Source: Chryseobacterium sp. JUb7 (GTDB taxonomy: Bacteria; Bacteroidota; Bacteroidia; Flavobacteriales; Weeksellaceae). Taken from it: a stretch of 64,000 bases of DNA. The notes under the pieces are model-generated. The model did no database searches. It saw nothing but the letters and a program-made list of their open reading frames with translations, and was not told the DNA's origin. The stretch is taken from positions 62,001 to 126,000 of the forward strand of contig NZ_JANUFF010000010.1 of the NCBI RefSeq assembly GCF_024806495.1. The letters are read 5' to 3'. Below, piece by piece: positions 5,049 through 51,417 of the stretch (the stretch's first letter is position 1; every line of letters starts with the position of its first letter). The translations under genes were made by a program, and so were the position numbers.

Positions 5049-7619
5049 ATGAACCAGACGGAAATTATCAACATTTTCACAAAAAAAGCCTTGGGACTTA
5101 CTTTTGTTCTTTCAGCAGCAGCGTTTGCTTTTGCTCAGGAGAAAGTAAATGTTTCAGGAACCGTTGTTAATGACAGCAGCCAAACGGTCCCTTATGCTTC
5201 TGTTACCTTTACAAACAAGGAAAATAAAGCATTAAGTGACGCTGCACTTGCAGATGAAAAAGGGCAATACAAACTTGATTTAGTACCCGGAATTTATGAC
5301 GTAACGATCGAAGCGGTGGGCTACAAAAAAAGTTTAGTCAATAAACAAATTACCGCTCCCGGAAATATTGGTGTATTAACGATTGAGCCTGACGAAAAAG
5401 CCAATCTTACGGCACCTAAAGATCAAAAAACTCAGGAAATTCAGGGAATTGTACTTACTGCAACTTCCACAAAACCTTATAAAGTAGAACTTGATAAAAG
5501 AACCTACGACCCTTCACAGGATATTGTAAGTAAAGGAGGAAATCTTCAGGATGTACTTTCCAATGTACCTTCAGTTTCTGTAGATACAGACGGAACAGTA
5601 TCCATGAGAGGAAGCTCGAATGTAAGATTTTTAATTAATGGTAAACCTTCTGCCCTTTTGGGTATTGATGACGGCGCCAATGCATTGCAAAGTATTCCGG
5701 CTGATCAGATCGAGAAAATTGAGGTAATTACCAATCCTTCTTCAAAATTTGAAGCATCAGGTACTGCAGGTATTTTAAATATTATTTTAAAAAAGAGCAA
5801 AAAAACAGGGTTTAACGGTAGTGTTATAGGAACTTTAGGATATCTTCCTCAAACCAATTTAAATGCTAATCTAAACTGGAGAAAAGGTAATGTCACATGG
5901 TTTCTAAACGGTGGCGGTGGTTATAGAGAATCGAAAAACACCAATAGAAATGACGATTATTTTAACAATGCTATAGTAAAAGATGATTTGGTACAAAGAA
6001 ATACTGACTCTGAAACTAAAAGTAAAAATAACAACTATAATGCTTCTGCCGGAATAGTATATGACATTACTGATAAAACATCGGTAAATGCATCCGGAAC
6101 TGTCAGAACATTCGACAGTGAAAACTTTGGTAATATTAATTATAGCTATACTCCATTAACAGATCCTTTCTATACATCAAACAGAAGAACGTTTGGTACA
6201 AATAATAATCTTGCTTTTCAGGGGGATTTCGGTTTAGATCATAAATTTGATGATAAAGGACAAAATTTATCTTTATCACTAAGTTTACAAAGAAGCCGAT
6301 CATACAACGACACCAATATTGATGATACAATTGATAATTTGAAAAATATTATTAATCAAAATACCATCAACAGATCTGTTATTGGTAAAGTAGATTATGA
6401 GTTGCCTATTGGTGAAAATTCAAAATTAGAAGCAGGATATAGAATTGATATCAATACGAATGATTACAGTAATGATGTTCTGGAGAGCACTGCAACAAAG
6501 CCTTTGGATTTCCTTAAGCCATATACTTATGATGCAACATACAAAGAAACTTTCAATGCTTTTTATTTACAATTCAAAAGTAAAATCGGAAAACTAGGCT
6601 ATCAGGTAGGTTTAAGAGATGAGCTATCAAATGTAGATATTAATTATGTAAGTCTTGATCCTAAGCAAAATTCAGTTATCACGACAAAAAATTACAACAA
6701 TCTTTTCCCTAGCGTTTATTTAAGCTATGAAATAGCAAAGGACAATCAGTTTTTGTTAAACTATACCAGAAGAATTGACCGACCAAGATCATTCTTTATG
6801 ATTCCTAACCCTAATTATAGTGATAATCAAAATATCTTTGACGGGAATATAAACTTAAATCCTTCTTACGTTGACTCTTTTGAATTTGGCTACAGTATTT
6901 CCAAAAAGAAATTTACGCTAAATCCAACATTATACTACAGACATCAGACTGATGATACAAAAATGTTGGTATACAATAAATTAGCTGAAGATGAAAATGG
7001 AAACCCAATAGTTCCTCAACGTATTGAATCACATACCAGACCTATTAATTTAGGAACAGACGATCGTTTTGGTTTAGACCTAAACTTCAACTGGGATGCA
7101 ACAAGTTGGTTAAAATTCTTAGGAAACGTAGACTTATTTGGCTACAACACCAAAGGCAGTACAATGTATGATACCTTTGATGAAACCGGAAAACCTATCC
7201 AGGCAGTTGCTAATTTTGAAGGTAAAGGATTCTCAACAAGAGCAAGATTGTCTTCTACATTTAAGGTTGACAAAACATTTAGCTTCCAGCTACAAGGATT
7301 CTACAGAGGAGGACAAAAAACAGCTTATCAGGATAGAAAAGATATGTATGCCATCAACTTTGGGGCATCAAAAACAATCTGGAAAGGAAATGGAACTTTG
7401 GCTTTCAATGTTCAGGATATTTTCAACACCAGGGCTATGAGATCTACAACGTATACAGCAAACAGTGTAAGAGATTCTTATATGCAATGGCAGCCAAGAC
7501 AGTTCTCTGTTTCTTTAACCTACAGGTTCAAACAGGGAGAGAAAATAGAACAGCCCAAAAGGAAAAAAGACATCAACTCCAATGCTACAGGAGATGATCA
7601 GCAAGGTGGACCAATGTAA
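5049..7619 (+). CDS. Outer-membrane TonB-dependent receptor-type protein with carboxypeptidase-regulatory-like domain
   Basis: The 856-residue protein starts with a signal peptide ending near AFAFAQ. A carboxypeptidase-regulatory-like beta-sandwich follows (VNVSGTVVNDSSQTVPYASVTFTN, residues about 34-110), then a plug domain (LQDVLSNVPSVSVDTDGTVSMRGSSNVRFLINGKPSALLG, QSIPADQIEKIEVITNPSSKFEASGTAGILNIILKK) and a long beta-barrel of the OMP_b-brl_3 type. The C-terminal tail (residues after SLTYRFKQG) is hydrophilic and ends in GGPM. The family resides in the outer membrane; its ligand cannot be told from sequence. It stands alone and is followed by a strong hairpin. Confidence 0.88.
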   Translation: MNQTEIINIFTKKALGLTFVLSAAAFAFAQEKVNVSGTVVNDSSQTVPYASVTFTNKENKALSDAALADEKGQYKLDLVPGIYDVTIEAVGYKKSLVNKQITAPGNIGVLTIEPDEKANLTAPKDQKTQEIQGIVLTATSTKPYKVELDKRTYDPSQDIVSKGGNLQDVLSNVPSVSVDTDGTVSMRGSSNVRFLINGKPSALLGIDDGANALQSIPADQIEKIEVITNPSSKFEASGTAGILNIILKKSKKTGFNGSVIGTLGYLPQTNLNANLNWRKGNVTWFLNGGGGYRESKNTNRNDDYFNNAIVKDDLVQRNTDSETKSKNNNYNASAGIVYDITDKTSVNASGTVRTFDSENFGNINYSYTPLTDPFYTSNRRTFGTNNNLAFQGDFGLDHKFDDKGQNLSLSLSLQRSRSYNDTNIDDTIDNLKNIINQNTINRSVIGKVDYELPIGENSKLEAGYRIDINTNDYSNDVLESTATKPLDFLKPYTYDATYKETFNAFYLQFKSKIGKLGYQVGLRDELSNVDINYVSLDPKQNSVITTKNYNNLFPSVYLSYEIAKDNQFLLNYTRRIDRPRSFFMIPNPNYSDNQNIFDGNINLNPSYVDSFEFGYSISKKKFTLNPTLYYRHQTDDTKMLVYNKLAEDENGNPIVPQRIESHTRPINLGTDDRFGLDLNFNWDATSWLKFLGNVDLFGYNTKGSTMYDTFDETGKPIQAVANFEGKGFSTRARLSSTFKVDKTFSFQLQGFYRGGQKTAYQDRKDMYAINFGASKTIWKGNGTLAFNVQDIFNTRAMRSTTYTANSVRDSYMQWQPRQFSVSLTYRFKQGEKIEQPKRKKDINSNATGDDQQGGPM

Positions 7620-7636
7620 GTCGCCTTTATATAAAC

Positions 7637-46820: not shown

Positions 46821-46851
46821 AATCCTTAAAGACAAGAATACTTTAAGGATT
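46821..46851 (-). terminator. Terminator closing the RiPP operon
   Basis: Perfect 11-base arms AATCCTTAAAG / CTTTAAGGATT with a 9-base loop are followed by a T-rich run on the minus strand. They begin 34 bases beyond the aspartic protease stop and separate this operon from the transporter gene. Confidence 0.8.
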
Positions 46852-46884
46852 ATAAAGTTAAGAAATATTTATTTTACAGCCTAC

Positions 46885-48039
46885 TTACTCTTTCTCAATA
46901 TATCCGTCATTAAACAGTTTATTTGGTTTTATATAAACAACATTGTTCTGAAAATCCAGAAAAACATTAAATCTCTTTAAGATCTCATTGCCCAGAATAT
47001 TCATTTTTTTATCAAGTACAGGTCTGCTTTCGGAAAGCAGCTGAGCCGGAATATTTTTCAGATTATATTTTCCCAGACTTAGCGATTCCAGATTGACTGT
47101 GTTGACAGGAATTTCATTGCCCTGGCCTCCTTTCATGACGACTTTTTTTATTATTTTCATCTGATCTGTAGGGAAATTCTGCTCTTTAAGTAAAGGATCG
47201 TCCAGCATGACTGTACGCTGGTATCCCGTATCAAAAAGGAACCAGTCTTTATTTGTTTGGGAACCCTGCTTTATCGTTGTTTCTACAAAAAACAGTTTAT
47301 CAAAATATTTAATTTCTAATTTTTCGTAGGCTTTGTCTTTTTTTACATTTTCAGGAAGTTGAGAGTGTACAACCATCATTCCGTGGTCATAATTCATTTC
47401 CACTACCATTCCATCAAACAGATCCCAGCCAAACCTCCCGTCGGTACCATGTCCGGTTAGCTCAACCTGATAGATTCTGAATCCGTCATATTTTTTGTTT
47501 CCGATCGATAACACATTTACTCTTCCTTTCAGTTGTTCTTTAATTTTATCTTTCAGGGTTTCCCGGGTAAGAGAAAGATTGTTGCTTCCGGTATCAAAAT
47601 TAAGAGTAAGAGAATCTTTATTCAATGCAGTCTTTACAAACATCGTATTCTGTTCATTGATTCCGAGACGGATGCTGTCGTGAAAAGGCGGATTGACATT
47701 ACTGAAATCTTTGGGAACCGAGCTCTCAATTCGGGTAAGACAGGAATCTTTCCCTTTTAAAAGAATTACAAAATCTTTTTTTTCACCTTTTTTCACTGTA
47801 ATTCTGATGGAATCGATATCTGTTTTTATTTTTACCGTTCTGGAGCCTTTGCTTATTTTAGAGGTGGTGTATACATCACGTTTTATAGACGGATCAATAT
47901 TCCAGTCTGTTTTCAGCCCGTTGTCTTCTTCAAGGAAGATTGCTTTAGACGAATTAGCCTTTACCACAGGAAGCTTTTTTTGAGCCATAATCTGAAGGTA
48001 GGATATAGTTAAAAATAAAAAAGCGAAAGTATATTTCAT
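46885..48039 (-). CDS. Exported aspartic protease-like protein with two DTG motifs
   Basis: The 384-residue protein has a signal peptide (cleavage near IMAQ). An N-terminal domain is followed by two retropepsin-like halves. The first motif is LNFDTGSNNL (Asp149), with GWDLFDGMVVEMNYD at its end. The second is LFDTGYQRTVML (Asp270), with NILGNEILKRFNVFLDFQNNVVYIKP at its end. Two halves in one chain could pair as a complete aspartic protease. It is the last gene of the RiPP operon (12 bases after the previous stop). That makes it a candidate for trimming the exported, modified peptide; this role is inference. Confidence 0.8.
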   Translation of the reverse strand: MKYTFAFLFLTISYLQIMAQKKLPVVKANSSKAIFLEEDNGLKTDWNIDPSIKRDVYTTSKISKGSRTVKIKTDIDSIRITVKKGEKKDFVILLKGKDSCLTRIESSVPKDFSNVNPPFHDSIRLGINEQNTMFVKTALNKDSLTLNFDTGSNNLSLTRETLKDKIKEQLKGRVNVLSIGNKKYDGFRIYQVELTGHGTDGRFGWDLFDGMVVEMNYDHGMMVVHSQLPENVKKDKAYEKLEIKYFDKLFFVETTIKQGSQTNKDWFLFDTGYQRTVMLDDPLLKEQNFPTDQMKIIKKVVMKGGQGNEIPVNTVNLESLSLGKYNLKNIPAQLLSESRPVLDKKMNILGNEILKRFNVFLDFQNNVVYIKPNKLFNDGYIEKE

Positions 48040-48051
48040 AAGAGAATATGA

Positions 48052-48930
48052 TTAAATAAGAAACTTACCAAGATAAATCATGACAATATCCAAGGAAGTG
48101 CTTCCAAGAGTTGATCCGTCATGGAAACAGTTATCGGTGGGAGCAATATAAAAATGATAAGGTTTATGCTCTATTCTTAACATAGGATAATCCGGAAAGA
48201 GCTTCATGAAATACGAGGTAATATTTTTGTTGTTCACATCATTTTCTTTCAGATCTATCTCTTTTTTAATCATATTATAAGCTTGCCGCATCGAAAGATT
48301 CGTTATCAATAAGTAACGTGATTCATTTCCCAAATTAAATGTTATTCTGTTTCCGAATGTATGAGCGGTATGGAGTGTCATATCTTTTTTTGAGGAGTCT
48401 TTGTGAACTCCGATAAACTGTAAGTCCCCGATAGACTGCCCCTCTGCCGGATTTCTTCTGCTCAGGGATACAATTTCGCTGTTTGCAAAGTTGGTAGCAA
48501 GACTCAAAAACCGGAATGGGCCCAGAGAAATCTGCTGCAAAAACTCATTAATATCAATATTGATCTGATCTACCACTTCCTTATGCTGTTTGAACTTGCT
48601 ATAAACTTCCTCTTCAGAAATCGACGCCCCAAGATCTAGCTTAGAAAAAAGATTTCGGATATTTTCCGGCAGTTCACCAGTAAATACAGAATTGTAGTCT
48701 TTCTTGTTCTTATGATTCCCCTTGATGATTTTATATTCATCAGGCTCTGGTGTGCGCCAGTCGCGCTTTGGCAGGTAAGCTCCGGGCTCATACTGCTGTA
48801 AGAACCTTTCGCCTCCGAAAATAAATTCGTTGGGACCCTGCTGGGTATGATGAAGAACACCTGAATTAACCTGAAGTGTTCCTCCATTATGATCTGAGTA
48901 TATTTTGATTCCGGGTTTTAGTTTTTTCAT
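48052..48930 (-). CDS. Putative Fe(II)/2-oxoglutarate oxygenase-like RiPP tailoring protein, paralogue 2
   Basis: The 292-residue protein is a paralogue of the gene just upstream. The two share (Y)LP.(M/R)DWR, a HTA..(S/F)GNRI...ESRYL..(T/V)NL(T/S).RQ block, and Y..YIAPTDN..HDG(T/S)TLG...D..M.Y.G at the end. His176-x-Asp178 (GVHKDSS) and His270 (CFHDGST) form an HxD...H pattern like the iron site of 2-oxoglutarate oxygenases. The Arg eight residues after the last His in the paralogue is Ser here, so co-substrate binding may differ. The assignment rests on motif and context only. Confidence 0.65.
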   Translation of the reverse strand: MKKLKPGIKIYSDHNGGTLQVNSGVLHHTQQGPNEFIFGGERFLQQYEPGAYLPKRDWRTPEPDEYKIIKGNHKNKKDYNSVFTGELPENIRNLFSKLDLGASISEEEVYSKFKQHKEVVDQINIDINEFLQQISLGPFRFLSLATNFANSEIVSLSRRNPAEGQSIGDLQFIGVHKDSSKKDMTLHTAHTFGNRITFNLGNESRYLLITNLSMRQAYNMIKKEIDLKENDVNNKNITSYFMKLFPDYPMLRIEHKPYHFYIAPTDNCFHDGSTLGSTSLDIVMIYLGKFLI

Positions 48931-48935
48931 ATGAT

Positions 48936-49766
48936 TCAGTATTTATCAAATACTCCCACATAGACCATGGTCACATCAAATTCTCTGTTTCCGAGAGTTG
49001 TACCATCGTGGATAAAATTATCTGTAGGAGCAATATAGTATTGGTAAGGTTTAATTTCCAGTCTTAAAACCGGATATCCGGGATAGAGAGTAAAAAATTG
49101 TTCAACAATATTATCAGATGTTATTTTCTCCGTATATTTTTTCTGCACCTCTCCATAAATCTGCCTCAGCGTTAAATTAACAAAGTACAGATAACGTGAT
49201 TCTGTGCTTATATTGATCGAAATCCTGTTTCCTGATTTATAAGCAGTATGAGGAGTAAAAAAACTACTTTTATCAATATGCAGACCTGTATATCTGAATG
49301 TGTTCTCTCCGATATGATGGAAAGTTGTACTCTGCATATCCGGAAGAGATCTGGCAATCCGGTGAAACTTATAATTCCTTTCTAAAGATTTTTCATCCAG
49401 AAAGACATTTGTTAACTCATTAATCTGCTTTGTAAGTACTTCATTTTCCTGAAATTTTTTTGGAACATCAAAAAGAGATTCACATTCATTCAGATCTAAT
49501 TTTTTAAATAAATCCTTTAACTGATCAGGAATTGCTCCCACGCCGAGTGTATTAAACATTTTACGGTCTGCATCTGCCGTAGAAATTTTTCCGTACTCTG
49601 AATCCGTAAGAGCACGCCAGTCCATATTAGGTAAATAGGCGTTACTGTAATATTCAATATCAGAATTTGTATTTACAACCGGACTTACTCCTGTATTGAT
49701 GCTGATCTGATCTTTTATATTCTGAATATGCCGATCATATACTTTGATACCTTTTCTTAAACTCAT
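48936..49766 (-). CDS. Putative Fe(II)/2-oxoglutarate oxygenase-like RiPP tailoring protein, paralogue 1
   Basis: The 276-residue protein overlaps the maturase gene by 4 bases, so the two are translationally coupled. The HxD...H pattern is His163-x-Asp165 (TGLHIDKSS) and His253 (NFIHDGTT), with Arg261 placed where a 2-oxoglutarate-anchoring Arg could lie. The C-terminal half is strand-rich, as expected of a double-stranded beta-helix. The likely role is hydroxylation or related oxidation of the peptide made next to it. I recall 2OG-Fe(II) oxygenases accompanying cyclophane-forming maturases in other clusters but cannot check identity here. Confidence 0.7.
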   Translation of the reverse strand: MSLRKGIKVYDRHIQNIKDQISINTGVSPVVNTNSDIEYYSNAYLPNMDWRALTDSEYGKISTADADRKMFNTLGVGAIPDQLKDLFKKLDLNECESLFDVPKKFQENEVLTKQINELTNVFLDEKSLERNYKFHRIARSLPDMQSTTFHHIGENTFRYTGLHIDKSSFFTPHTAYKSGNRISINISTESRYLYFVNLTLRQIYGEVQKKYTEKITSDNIVEQFFTLYPGYPVLRLEIKPYQYYIAPTDNFIHDGTTLGNREFDVTMVYVGVFDKY

Positions 49767-51004
49767 GCTAAACTGTAGGCTAATAATTTATCTTTAATAT
49801 TTTTCTGAACAGAAACAGGTCCTTGGCTTTCCAACTCTTCTACAATCTCGTGATACGAAACTCTGGTAAGATCCATTTCTCTGCAAACCTCTTCAGGCAG
49901 GCTATTTATAAGGTCATTCTGGATATAGCTTACCAGTTTTATCATGTCGTGACAGTAAATCGTAGGATTATCAAATCCGTTTTCGTTTGAATATCTGTTT
50001 AGCAGGAAGCCACCTCCACATATTTCATAAATGGGACAGTTAAGGCATTTTTCGTTAACCATCTGATGAGAATTGATGTAAATATCAAAAAGCGGATCCG
50101 CCAGTACAGAGTCTATCTCGTGGGTATGGATGTTGATATCATTTCTGGTAATTCCTTCATAGCAGGCTCTTATAGAATCTGCCACTTCCAGATTTCCGTT
50201 TGTTTCCAGGATGGCTACCCCATTCTTTTTCAGTCCGAGTACCTGATCTCCCACTTCTTCACCTGCGATAAGTTGAATCAATGTTTTAAAAAATCTCATA
50301 TTCGGTCTGTCCGGATCGCTTTTCCAGATAGCAAAGAGTTCGATCAGCCAATCTGCATAGGGTGTATAATTGCTGGTATTTACTTTTTCCCTGATGATCC
50401 CATCCGGTAACTTATCGAAATGTCCGTCGGGTAGTAAAAGATTAAAACTCAGAATATTGAGATCTTTAAATTCCTGATAAAGTTCCTGCGGACTGATATT
50501 CAGGTTTACTACAGACAAAACGCCATGCATCCCTTTATCCAATCCGAGTTGTATTGCACTCCGAACCTCATCATAAGATCCCTTTCCGTTATGAAAAACA
50601 CGGTATTGATCGTGGTATTCTTTAGGTCCGTCTATGCTGACACCGACCCGGATGTTTAATTCATTAAAAAGACTGTACCATTCTTCATCCAGACCTACTC
50701 CATTGGTCTGAAGTACAAAATCAAAATAAGAATCGCTTAGTTTTTCTCTGAATATCTTTATGCTTTCCCTGTAAAATTCTTTTGGATATAATAAGGGTTC
50801 GCCGCCGTGAAAAACGATCTGAAAGGATTTCAAACCATTTTCGTCACTGTAACGTGATAGTTTTTCTGCGAACGTTGTCATCGTATCAAGTGACATGAAT
50901 TTGGGCTGTTTCAAATAAGTTTTATCCCCCAAATTATACATGTAACAGTACGAACAGTTGAGGTTGCATCTGCTTGCAACCTTCAGAACAAAAGAAGTAA
51001 CCAT
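49763..51004 (-). CDS. Radical SAM/SPASM peptide maturase, probably cyclophane-forming
   Basis: The 413-residue protein has the radical SAM cluster motif CNLNCSYCY (Cys13, 17, 20), the SAM-binding HGGEPLL, and VSIDGPKEYHDQYR. The C-terminal SPASM-type Cys set starts at RACYEG and continues KCLNCPIYEICGGGFLLNRYSNENGFDNPTIYCHDM. The CGGG...GFDNP..YC segment resembles the XyeB/FxsB/GrrM group, which join an aromatic residue to the beta-carbon two residues on. The precursor gene 69 bases upstream ends in three such triplets. The reaction here is a prediction from family resemblance and substrate sequence. Confidence 0.88.
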   Translation of the reverse strand: MVTSFVLKVASRCNLNCSYCYMYNLGDKTYLKQPKFMSLDTMTTFAEKLSRYSDENGLKSFQIVFHGGEPLLYPKEFYRESIKIFREKLSDSYFDFVLQTNGVGLDEEWYSLFNELNIRVGVSIDGPKEYHDQYRVFHNGKGSYDEVRSAIQLGLDKGMHGVLSVVNLNISPQELYQEFKDLNILSFNLLLPDGHFDKLPDGIIREKVNTSNYTPYADWLIELFAIWKSDPDRPNMRFFKTLIQLIAGEEVGDQVLGLKKNGVAILETNGNLEVADSIRACYEGITRNDINIHTHEIDSVLADPLFDIYINSHQMVNEKCLNCPIYEICGGGFLLNRYSNENGFDNPTIYCHDMIKLVSYIQNDLINSLPEEVCREMDLTRVSYHEIVEELESQGPVSVQKNIKDKLLAYSLA

Positions 51005-51022
51005 ATCTATATCAATAAATAA

Positions 51023-51052
51023 AGTTCTTCGCTATTTGACTAACGAAGAACT
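51023..51052 (-). promoter_or_regulatory. Hairpin between precursor and maturase genes
   Basis: Perfect 9-base arms AGTTCTTCG / CGAAGAACT enclose a 12-base loop, with only a weak T-rich tail on the minus strand (CTTTATTTATT). This fits a partial terminator or mRNA-stabilising hairpin that lets the precursor be made in excess of the enzymes. Confidence 0.6.
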
Positions 51053-51073
51053 AAAGTTTTAAAAATCAGTAAA

Positions 51074-51328
51074 TTAAGCTCTTAAAAATGTATCATGCCT
51101 GTCATAAGCAGCTGATGCACCTGAAATGGCTACTACATCACAGCTACCTCCAGGAGGCGCAATGATAACACCGCCACCGCCACCGGTTCCCGGAGCAATG
51201 CCTAAATTATTGATTCCTCCGAAAATAGATTTGTAAAGATCTACATTCTCATTTTCTGAGTTCTGAATTGATTTTTTTAGAATTTCTTTTTGTTCAAGAT
51301 TACTCGTGATTTTAAATTTCTTTTTCAT
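51074..51328 (-). CDS. RiPP precursor peptide with C-terminal aromatic-X-X triplets
   Basis: The 84-residue peptide has a charged, helical leader (MKKKFKITSNLEQKEILKKS...), a Gly-Gly at 37-38 in LYKSIFGG that could be a cleavage site, then a Gly/Ala/Pro-rich stretch with five consecutive glycines and one Cys (Cys63). The tail is Y75-D-R, H78-D-T, F81-L-R, A84: three back-to-back aromatic-X-X triplets. Cyclophane-forming radical SAM enzymes act on just such motifs. It is the first gene of a five-gene operon with its own promoter. Not seen: any paralogous precursor or dedicated exporter nearby. Confidence 0.8.
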   Translation of the reverse strand: MKKKFKITSNLEQKEILKKSIQNSENENVDLYKSIFGGINNLGIAPGTGGGGGVIIAPPGGSCDVVAISGASAAYDRHDTFLRA

Positions 51329-51368
51329 AAAAGATGAGTTAAATGGGTTATTAATCTACTTATCTCAC

Positions 51369-51376
51369 CAAATATA
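51369..51376 (-). promoter_or_regulatory. TAnnTTTG -7 box of the RiPP operon
   Basis: TATATTTG on the minus strand fits the consensus exactly and lies 40 bases before the precursor ATG, between it and the end of the GH97 gene. No clear -33 TTG is seen. Confidence 0.55.
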
Positions 51377-51417
51377 GAAAAATAAATTCACACTAAAAAA
51401 CATTTTTAATTAAAAAT

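Follow-up and report, generated by a model that had tools for sequence, protein, structure and literature searches.

A candidate three-residue-cyclophane peptide operon with two MicC-like oxygenases in Chryseobacterium sp. JUb7

What would be made by five adjacent genes on the minus strand of a Chryseobacterium genome, and do the genes belong together? They lie in a 64,000-nucleotide stretch of Chryseobacterium sp. JUb7 (the window; contig NZ_JANUFF010000010.1, from a genome of 4.95 Mb, here G000). An earlier note on this DNA had described them as a complete operon for a ribosomally synthesised and post-translationally modified peptide (RiPP), comprising a precursor, a radical S-adenosylmethionine (SAM)/SPASM maturase, two HxD oxygenase-like proteins and an exported aspartic protease. 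The answer proposed here, with a probability of about two in three, is that the operon encodes a three-residue-cyclophane RiPP pathway, in which an exported peptide would receive a ring at its single conserved tyrosine and then be modified oxidatively by a pair of related iron enzymes. Pathways of this type are already known; judged by sequence, what is new is a precursor family accompanied by separate and multiplied MicC-like oxygenases. A description of the precursor family was not found in the open-licence literature. Below, L numbers refer to loci and G numbers to the genomes compared.

The proposed order of events is as follows. A double-glycine leader would guide the radical SAM/SPASM enzyme to the core at the C-terminus; there the enzyme would join a ring carbon of Tyr75 to the beta carbon of Arg77, giving a ring of the YhhB type; a second ring, at Phe81-x-Arg83, is possible in this species. 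The two MicC-like oxygenases would act next, each oxidising a different position of the core that carries the ring, most probably through hydroxylation. Cleavage after the Gly-Gly pair and export would follow, the latter through a C39-type ATP-binding cassette (ABC) transporter whose gene lies elsewhere in the genome. Outside, the variable spacer may be trimmed by the aspartic protease, which looks exported. Of this picture, the genes with their families and catalytic motifs, the conserved core, the co-inheritance and the predicted fold of oxygenase 1 are established; the ring and its partners, the sites of oxidation, the sequence of events, the exporter and the role of the protease are inferred.

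The precursor core and its maturase

The precursor gene (51328-51074, minus strand) encodes 84 aa. Residues 1-38 make up a leader of double-glycine type ending ...NVDLYKSIFGG (51215..51328), and residues 39-84 the spacer and core (51074..51214, stop codon included). Comparison was based on 37 precursor rows (34 distinct): that of the window, 29 from 27 of 29 named loci, two of which gave two precursors each, and seven from other genomes. The named loci were collected by oxygenase search and come from nine named genera of Bacteroidota; 28 of them extend to the neighbouring gene. Precursors were selected by the pattern LY[KSQN][ASK][IV]F[GA][GK] in a frame of less than 120 aa, so the leader is bound to look conserved to some extent; the core played no part in selection. 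Outside the 37 rows were L100, L147 and L148, where the leader was unmatched, and L031-L035, L135, L139, L140, L143-L145 and L171, which were not entered.

A Gly-Gly pair followed LYxx[IV]F in 35 of the 37 precursors, including that of the window. The core was strongly conserved. Every precursor had exactly one Cys in this part (Cys63 in the window, 51140-51142) and a Tyr (Tyr75, 51104-51106) followed by D, N or S and then, at Tyr+2, by K (20 rows) or R (17 rows; Arg77 in the window, 51098-51100), which is the i/i+2 arrangement of triceptides. The distance from Cys to Tyr ranged from 12 to 18 residues. The pair Phe-Leu (Phe81-Leu82, within 51074..51214) was equally invariant and had D or E upstream in all 37 cores, with Asp at F-2 in 33, and the residue at F+2 was R in 19, L in 8, Q in 8 and K in 2. 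Among the 21 rows from the same bacterial family (210 pairs), mean identity was 79% for the leader, 66% for the core from Cys onward and 34% for the spacer. Since the spacer is so variable beside a conserved leader and core, it is probably removed.

A precursor with this core adjoined the maturase in 27 of the 28 testable named loci. The exception was L100, where the precursor was of another type (AYADSIYVKK). The stretch of L087 ends before the position of the precursor, and no precursor was identified for L147. The possibility that the precursor is not conserved beside the maturase, which the earlier note had named as contrary to its reading, was therefore not realised. Two copies of the precursor were seen in Niastella (L090:7160-7622) and in Mucilaginibacter flavus (L093:4468-4674 and 7424-7627), where they flank a beta-barrel gene.

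The maturase gene (49763..51004, minus strand) encodes a radical SAM/SPASM protein of 413 aa. Its only significant Pfam domain over the 413 residues was PF04055 (70.7 bits). The cysteines of the CxxxCxxC motif (C13, C17, C20) and of the C-terminal SPASM region (C320, C323, C329, C351) were invariant in all 32 aligned homologues, and C281 was nearly so. The best of 69 NCBIfam matches was YhhB (NF041707), at 350 bits where the cut-off requires 445, followed by FxsB (TIGR04269) with 315.6 against 370. XyeB and GrrM, from the same SPASM group, also scored below their cut-offs (195.8 against 450 and 125.1 against 310), and the sulfatase maturases and PapB models gave 155 and 110.3 bits. All 32 homologues matched YhhB (best E 1.1e-108) and each of them also matched the other three leading models. 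The nearest solved structure by profile was ChlB (E 7.8e-84), with sulfatase maturases next (6.6e-42). The placement of the maturase in the cyclophane-forming SPASM group, made previously from its motifs, was thus upheld by the ranking of YhhB, FxsB and XyeB and by the nearness of ChlB, and a grouping with unrelated SPASM families did not come about. Scores under the curated cut-offs mean that, despite this affinity, the protein belongs to neither YhhB nor FxsB; it looks like a cyclophane former outside both. None of 395 Bacteroidota genomes contained a protein above the YhhB cut-off.

Of 40 maturases placed in a tree, 32 adjoin oxygenases and eight do not. In this tree, for which a long-branch warning was given, those from clusters with this precursor type formed one clade of 29 rows (support 99/98), with the maturase of L100, a locus with one oxygenase, as its sister (99/95). 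The eight without oxygenases fell outside the clade, and the divergent pair L147 and L148 stood apart.

The position of the ring is suggested by YhhB, the top-scoring family. YhhB is reported to join C3 of Tyr to the beta carbon of Arg (PMC11002830), and this linkage, taken with the conserved Y-x-[KR] of the present precursors, leads to the proposed Tyr75-Arg77 ring; Y-[DNS]-[KR] is the pattern that would be expected of a YhhB-type Tyr-to-Arg/Lys ring. The present system differs from that of YhhB in that Lys is as frequent as Arg at +2, the precursors contain one invariant Cys, and the operon has separate 2-oxoglutarate oxygenases. The logic is shared with ChlB, a fused radical SAM and aKG-HExxH (alpha-ketoglutarate-dependent) protein (structure 9gm3), for which formation of a cyclophane and then 2-oxoglutarate-dependent hydroxylation are described in PMC12636437. 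However, the present maturase is not fused, and the present oxygenases have a classical H-x-D...H triad rather than HExxH. The earlier proposal of rings between aromatic residues and side chains is therefore backed by conservation for Tyr(i)-Lys/Arg(i+2); for the possible second ring it is not, as F+2 is Leu in eight of 37 precursors.

A linkage of some other kind made by the maturase, whether Phe81-Arg83, Asp79-Phe81 or a thioether to Cys, is improbable. It would account for the invariance of F-L with D or E upstream, for R, Q or K at F+2 in 29 of the 37 precursors and for a maturase score under the YhhB cut-off, and the single core Cys could serve a ranthipeptide-like bond. However, the sequence of the maturase is much closer to ChlB and to the YhhB, FxsB and XyeB families, described by NCBIfam as cyclophane formers, than to PapB. 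The position F+2 accepts Leu and the spacing of Asp and Phe is not fixed, whereas Tyr and the K/R at +2 are. Moreover, aromatic-x-polar motifs are also present in short frames beside oxygenase-free maturases (WSN repeats in L037; YTE and YVR in L153). The YhhB-type ring at Tyr75 is accordingly retained as the preferred linkage.

Other maturases were encountered in passing. A 719-aa protein at L040:4958-7370, with HEHRH in its C-terminal half, looks like the fused kind of YhhB/ChlB, and adjoins a small frame ending YSRMHHRHNRS. In L036 and L037, the frame in front of a related maturase is short and repeats Trp-Ser-Asn (WSNNWSNLGWSN), in the manner of Trp-x-Asn cyclophane precursors; ATP-synthase-like genes lie nearby. 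In the window genome itself, a further radical SAM gene lies close to two C39 transporter genes at approximately 6600-12700 of contig C14; together they are probably a separate RiPP cluster.

Two oxygenases of one family

Oxygenase 1 (48936..49766, minus strand, 276 aa) and oxygenase 2 (48052..48930, minus strand, 292 aa) are paralogues with the same putative iron triad, H163, D165 and H253 in oxygenase 1. Neither matched a Pfam or NCBIfam family significantly; a Pfam scan of 86 members of the family returned four families with one member each (E 0.002-0.009), which were taken as noise. The triad (H-x-D...H) was invariant in all 86 aligned homologues. When a profile of these 86 was compared with solved structures, MicC, an aKG-dependent non-heme iron oxygenase (9vkm), was the sole significant match (E 6.6e-44; next 0.076). 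A search with a single sequence also recovered MicC (E 5.4e-22) with the HxD and IHDG motifs aligned. The alignment is near full length at 24-32% identity, and both motifs, HxD and IHDG(S/T)T, are the same. Conversely, matches to MicC in the 395 Bacteroidota genomes came only from members of the present oxygenase family, in three genomes.

The AlphaFold2 model of oxygenase 1 had a mean predicted local distance difference test (pLDDT) score of 93.8. Foldseek matched this model to KdoO (E 6.6e-4, probability 0.99, template modelling (TM) score 0.38), and VIA-align gave Z 10.1 for KdoO (root-mean-square deviation (rmsd) 4.4, 194 aligned) and Z 9.7 for WelO5 (rmsd 4.2, 181 aligned). The 50 VIA-align matches listed all belong, by title or as known enzymes, to the 2-oxoglutarate oxygenase class. 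The structure 9vkm was not among the fold-search matches listed (library to April 2026), which has no bearing either way. By homology to MicC and the invariant triad, together with the predicted fold of oxygenase 1, both HxD proteins are classed as Fe(II)/2-oxoglutarate oxygenases, in agreement with their first description as oxygenase-like.

In a quick tree of the 86 members, first-position copies were split from later copies by a branch with a support of 97 in the Shimodaira-Hasegawa-like approximate likelihood ratio test (SH-aLRT), which makes the duplication old. The number of copies varied among clusters. L100 had one; the other Chryseobacterium loci and G229 had two; clusters of Mucilaginibacter, Longitalea, Niastella and Flavobacterium had three; and those of Chitinophaga, Kordia, Aquimarina, Tenacibaculum and one metagenome-assembled genome (MAG) had four. 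The combination of a maturase with two oxygenases and a two-DTG protease had been called unusual. Two oxygenases are usual in Chryseobacterium, but relatives have between one and four, and the protease is not fixed.

Oxidation need not mean hydroxylation in every case. One oxygenase might close a second ring, by an oxidative C-S bond between the invariant Cys and Tyr or another core residue, with the other copies hydroxylating. One core Cys and one Tyr are invariant in the 37 precursors, at a distance that varies, and a Cys-Tyr crosslink made in a RiPP by a 2-oxoglutarate oxygenase has been reported (Xia et al. 2025, cited in PMC12636437). In addition, oxygenase 1 and the later copies represent an old split, and both kinds occur in the mapped clusters of this precursor type. 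On the other side, the cited crosslinking enzyme may be unrelated to the present oxygenases, and the Cys might just as well act in recognition, bind a metal or take part in a disulfide. This second ring is considered unlikely. Less likely again is a more elaborate arrangement of doubly ringed peptides, in which the maturase would make the Tyr-Lys/Arg ring, a MicC-like oxygenase would link Cys to the core, and each extra oxygenase would add one modification, such that copy number sets the complexity of the product. This arrangement would have the Cys-Tyr distance track the number of oxygenases. The distance was indeed 12-14 with two oxygenases and 15-18 with three or four, but it also tracks lineage; being confounded in this way, the relationship was not used as evidence. 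Hydroxylation of a core bearing the Tyr75 ring remains the preferred role for both enzymes.

The family spans nine named genera and brings a cyclophane-type maturase and one to four paralogous 2-oxoglutarate oxygenases to bear on one short, strongly conserved core. It permits a direct test of the division of labour among paralogous peptide oxygenases, and of ring formation besides hydroxylation.

Recurrence of the gene set and the block behind GH97

Across 296 genomes of the bacterial family, the maturase (at least 62% identity) and oxygenase 1 (at least 50%) shared one set of 21 genomes, seven genomes that matched over 31 residues only and the weak matches of G299 and G311 having been left out. 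A distant maturase (31-44%) was present in 18 more genomes, two of which (G299 and G311) also had a distant oxygenase. The maturase adjoined the oxygenases in all 28 testable named loci. The nearest named loci of the maturase, oxygenases and protease were from Chryseobacterium, Weeksellaceae. The check by co-occurrence that the earlier note had suggested thus showed recurrence beyond chance, and a chance operon was ruled out because the same gene set recurs across genomes.

The seven short matches (L065-L071, from several genera) are a 30-residue tail of an oxygenase-like gene, IAPTDNCIHDGS... (L067:1504-1593), in closely similar DNA. In L067 the tail directly precedes a 302-aa transposase-like gene, and it seems to be a gene end moved by an insertion sequence. 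The transposase-like protein is presumably ISXO2-like. The loci of G299 and G311 (L147 and L148) hold a very divergent second system of a maturase, one distant oxygenase, a 311-317-aa protein and a C39 transporter; a possible precursor in L148 contains GGEWVKIKTKFSKGG.

The order, strand and spacing of the five genes (gaps of 69, -4, 5 and 12 bases) were exactly as first described. The operon is preceded by a GH97 glycosidase and followed by an SBF-like transporter and then an AstE/AspA-like protein, beyond which is an alpha-amylase-like gene, judged by eye. GH97 was found in all 108 genomes of the genus that were sampled. Within 1.5 kb behind GH97, at the 30 best-matching loci, peptide genes were present in four (the window included), the SBF gene in six and the AstE-like gene in two, and 18 had none of the genes sought. 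Eight loci were used in the comparison of empty sites. In four of these (L185, L192, L194 and L197), DNA matching the window began no more than 7 bases after the GH97 stop codon, and included the hairpin; in the window this match starts 15-20 bases beyond the protease stop. Among the others, L181 and L195 matched only around the start of the SBF gene, and L176 and L179 had no long match.

The empty sites delimit one block of approximately 4.5 kb, containing the five genes and the promoter box (46869..51417, ends approximate, minus strand), from the GH97 stop codon to the GH97-type terminator. This block was either gained at this site or lost from other genomes; the five genes come or go as a unit behind a conserved GH97. 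The structure described as the terminator of the operon is a hairpin AATCCTTAAAG / CTTTAAGGATT plus a T run (46821..46851, minus strand). Its perfect stem, of 11 bp, was verified, but it matches the GH97 terminator of genomes that do not have the operon and, since empty sites carry it, it belongs to GH97.

The box reported in front of the operon, TATATTTG, was located at 51369..51376 on the minus strand, and conforms to TAnnTTTG, which we take to be the Bacteroidota promoter consensus; a promoter role would follow. The bare box was dropped as evidence in its own right, as its frequency in the window (97) was close to chance (85.5 +/- 8.5 after shuffling, with 97 reached in 11 of 100 shuffles), and weight was given solely to its being conserved at the GH97 site. 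TATATTTG occupied the aligned place in all seven GH97-site operons compared (the window, L031, L032, L074, L075, L077 and L134). Clusters also occur at other sites, namely in C. rhizosphaerae (L082), Chryseobacterium sp. Bi04 (L083) and G229, the last containing a C39 transporter, the protease, precursor, maturase, two oxygenases and one more long gene. TAnnTTTG was not found within 200 bases in L082 or L083, and of the 16 precursor loci off the GH97 site, these two included, only two had it within that distance (at -170 and -187).

Export, the aspartic protease and points against the pathway

Several observations weigh against the proposed pathway. The maturase falls below the cut-offs of both YhhB and FxsB, and a single Tyr-Lys/Arg ring leaves the invariant Cys and F-L unexplained. 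The fold of oxygenase 1 is matched by class only, with Foldseek TM-scores of 0.37-0.39 for the best rows. The operon contains no exporter. Finally, the protease is irregular in its occurrence. Two of the 21 family operons (G244 and G192) lack it and have an M20 peptidase gene in the following position; in G264 its gene (L171:5358-6504) is split by stop codons, with the precursor, maturase and both oxygenases open; a solo copy lies behind GH97 in G220, G286, G305 and G311; and, beyond the bacterial family, it was not found in the stretches of 15 clusters, apart from a distant copy on the opposite strand near the Aquimarina cluster.

Since none of the five genes encodes an exporter, the operon cannot be called complete, as it had been. 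The window genome has three C39 domains elsewhere, on contigs C5 and C14. C39 ABC transporters lie within the clusters of Chitinophaga, Mucilaginibacter, Longitalea, Niastella, Flavobacterium, a MAG and G229 (L085-L090, L093, L094 and L146, by locus).

The protease gene (46885..48039, minus strand) encodes an exported-looking, two-lobed, pepsin-like aspartic protease of 384 aa, its N-terminal signal peptide being judged by eye only. D149/G151 and D270/G272 of the two D-[TS]-G motifs were invariant in 20 of 20 sequences. The best Foldseek match to its model (pLDDT 80.4) was a Bacteroides fragilis endopeptidase (9iy9, E 6.0e-11), which has the same two-lobed fold and two D-T-G motifs at 14% identity over the match, followed by pepsin-type enzymes.

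Rather than trimming the peptide, this enzyme may be a passenger of the GH97 locus with no part in peptide production, a serious alternative, if somewhat short of even odds. The solo copies behind GH97, without the other four genes, point that way, as do homologues (50-53%) in G064, G103, G118, G130 and G140, where no maturase was found at E 1e-50, the frequency of weaker homologues (147 of 296 genomes at E 1e-15), and the two missing copies and one broken copy among operons. However, the protease is adjacent in 19 of the 21 operons, being behind the oxygenases in 18, the broken copy of G264 among them, and, in the different arrangement of G229, upstream of the precursor. It also falls inside the block delimited by empty sites, and no protease was found in 1.5 kb behind GH97 at the 26 operon-free loci among the 30 best-matching. 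The protease tree leaves the order of states undecided, both as to which came first and as to whether a solo protease is a remnant. One solo-protease genome, G311, has the distant L148 cluster elsewhere. The case for a dedicated partner is weakened by the solo, absent and broken copies; the protease belongs to the block but is no fixed partner, and trimming outside the cytoplasm therefore stays a guess within the preferred cyclophane pathway.

Outside the bacterial family, 13 of the 15 named clusters had an outer-membrane beta-barrel gene upstream; L084 had none and L087 was cut off. The protein, of approximately 800 aa, precedes the precursor in L085, L086, L088-L095 and L097-L099. Four of the 13 were confirmed as PF14905 and the others were assigned by similarity to one of the four. 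It may serve in uptake, export or immunity. An alpha/beta hydrolase that looks exported comes after the maturase in L039 and L153 (in two pieces in L153), in a place like that of the protease, and after the oxygenase in L100.

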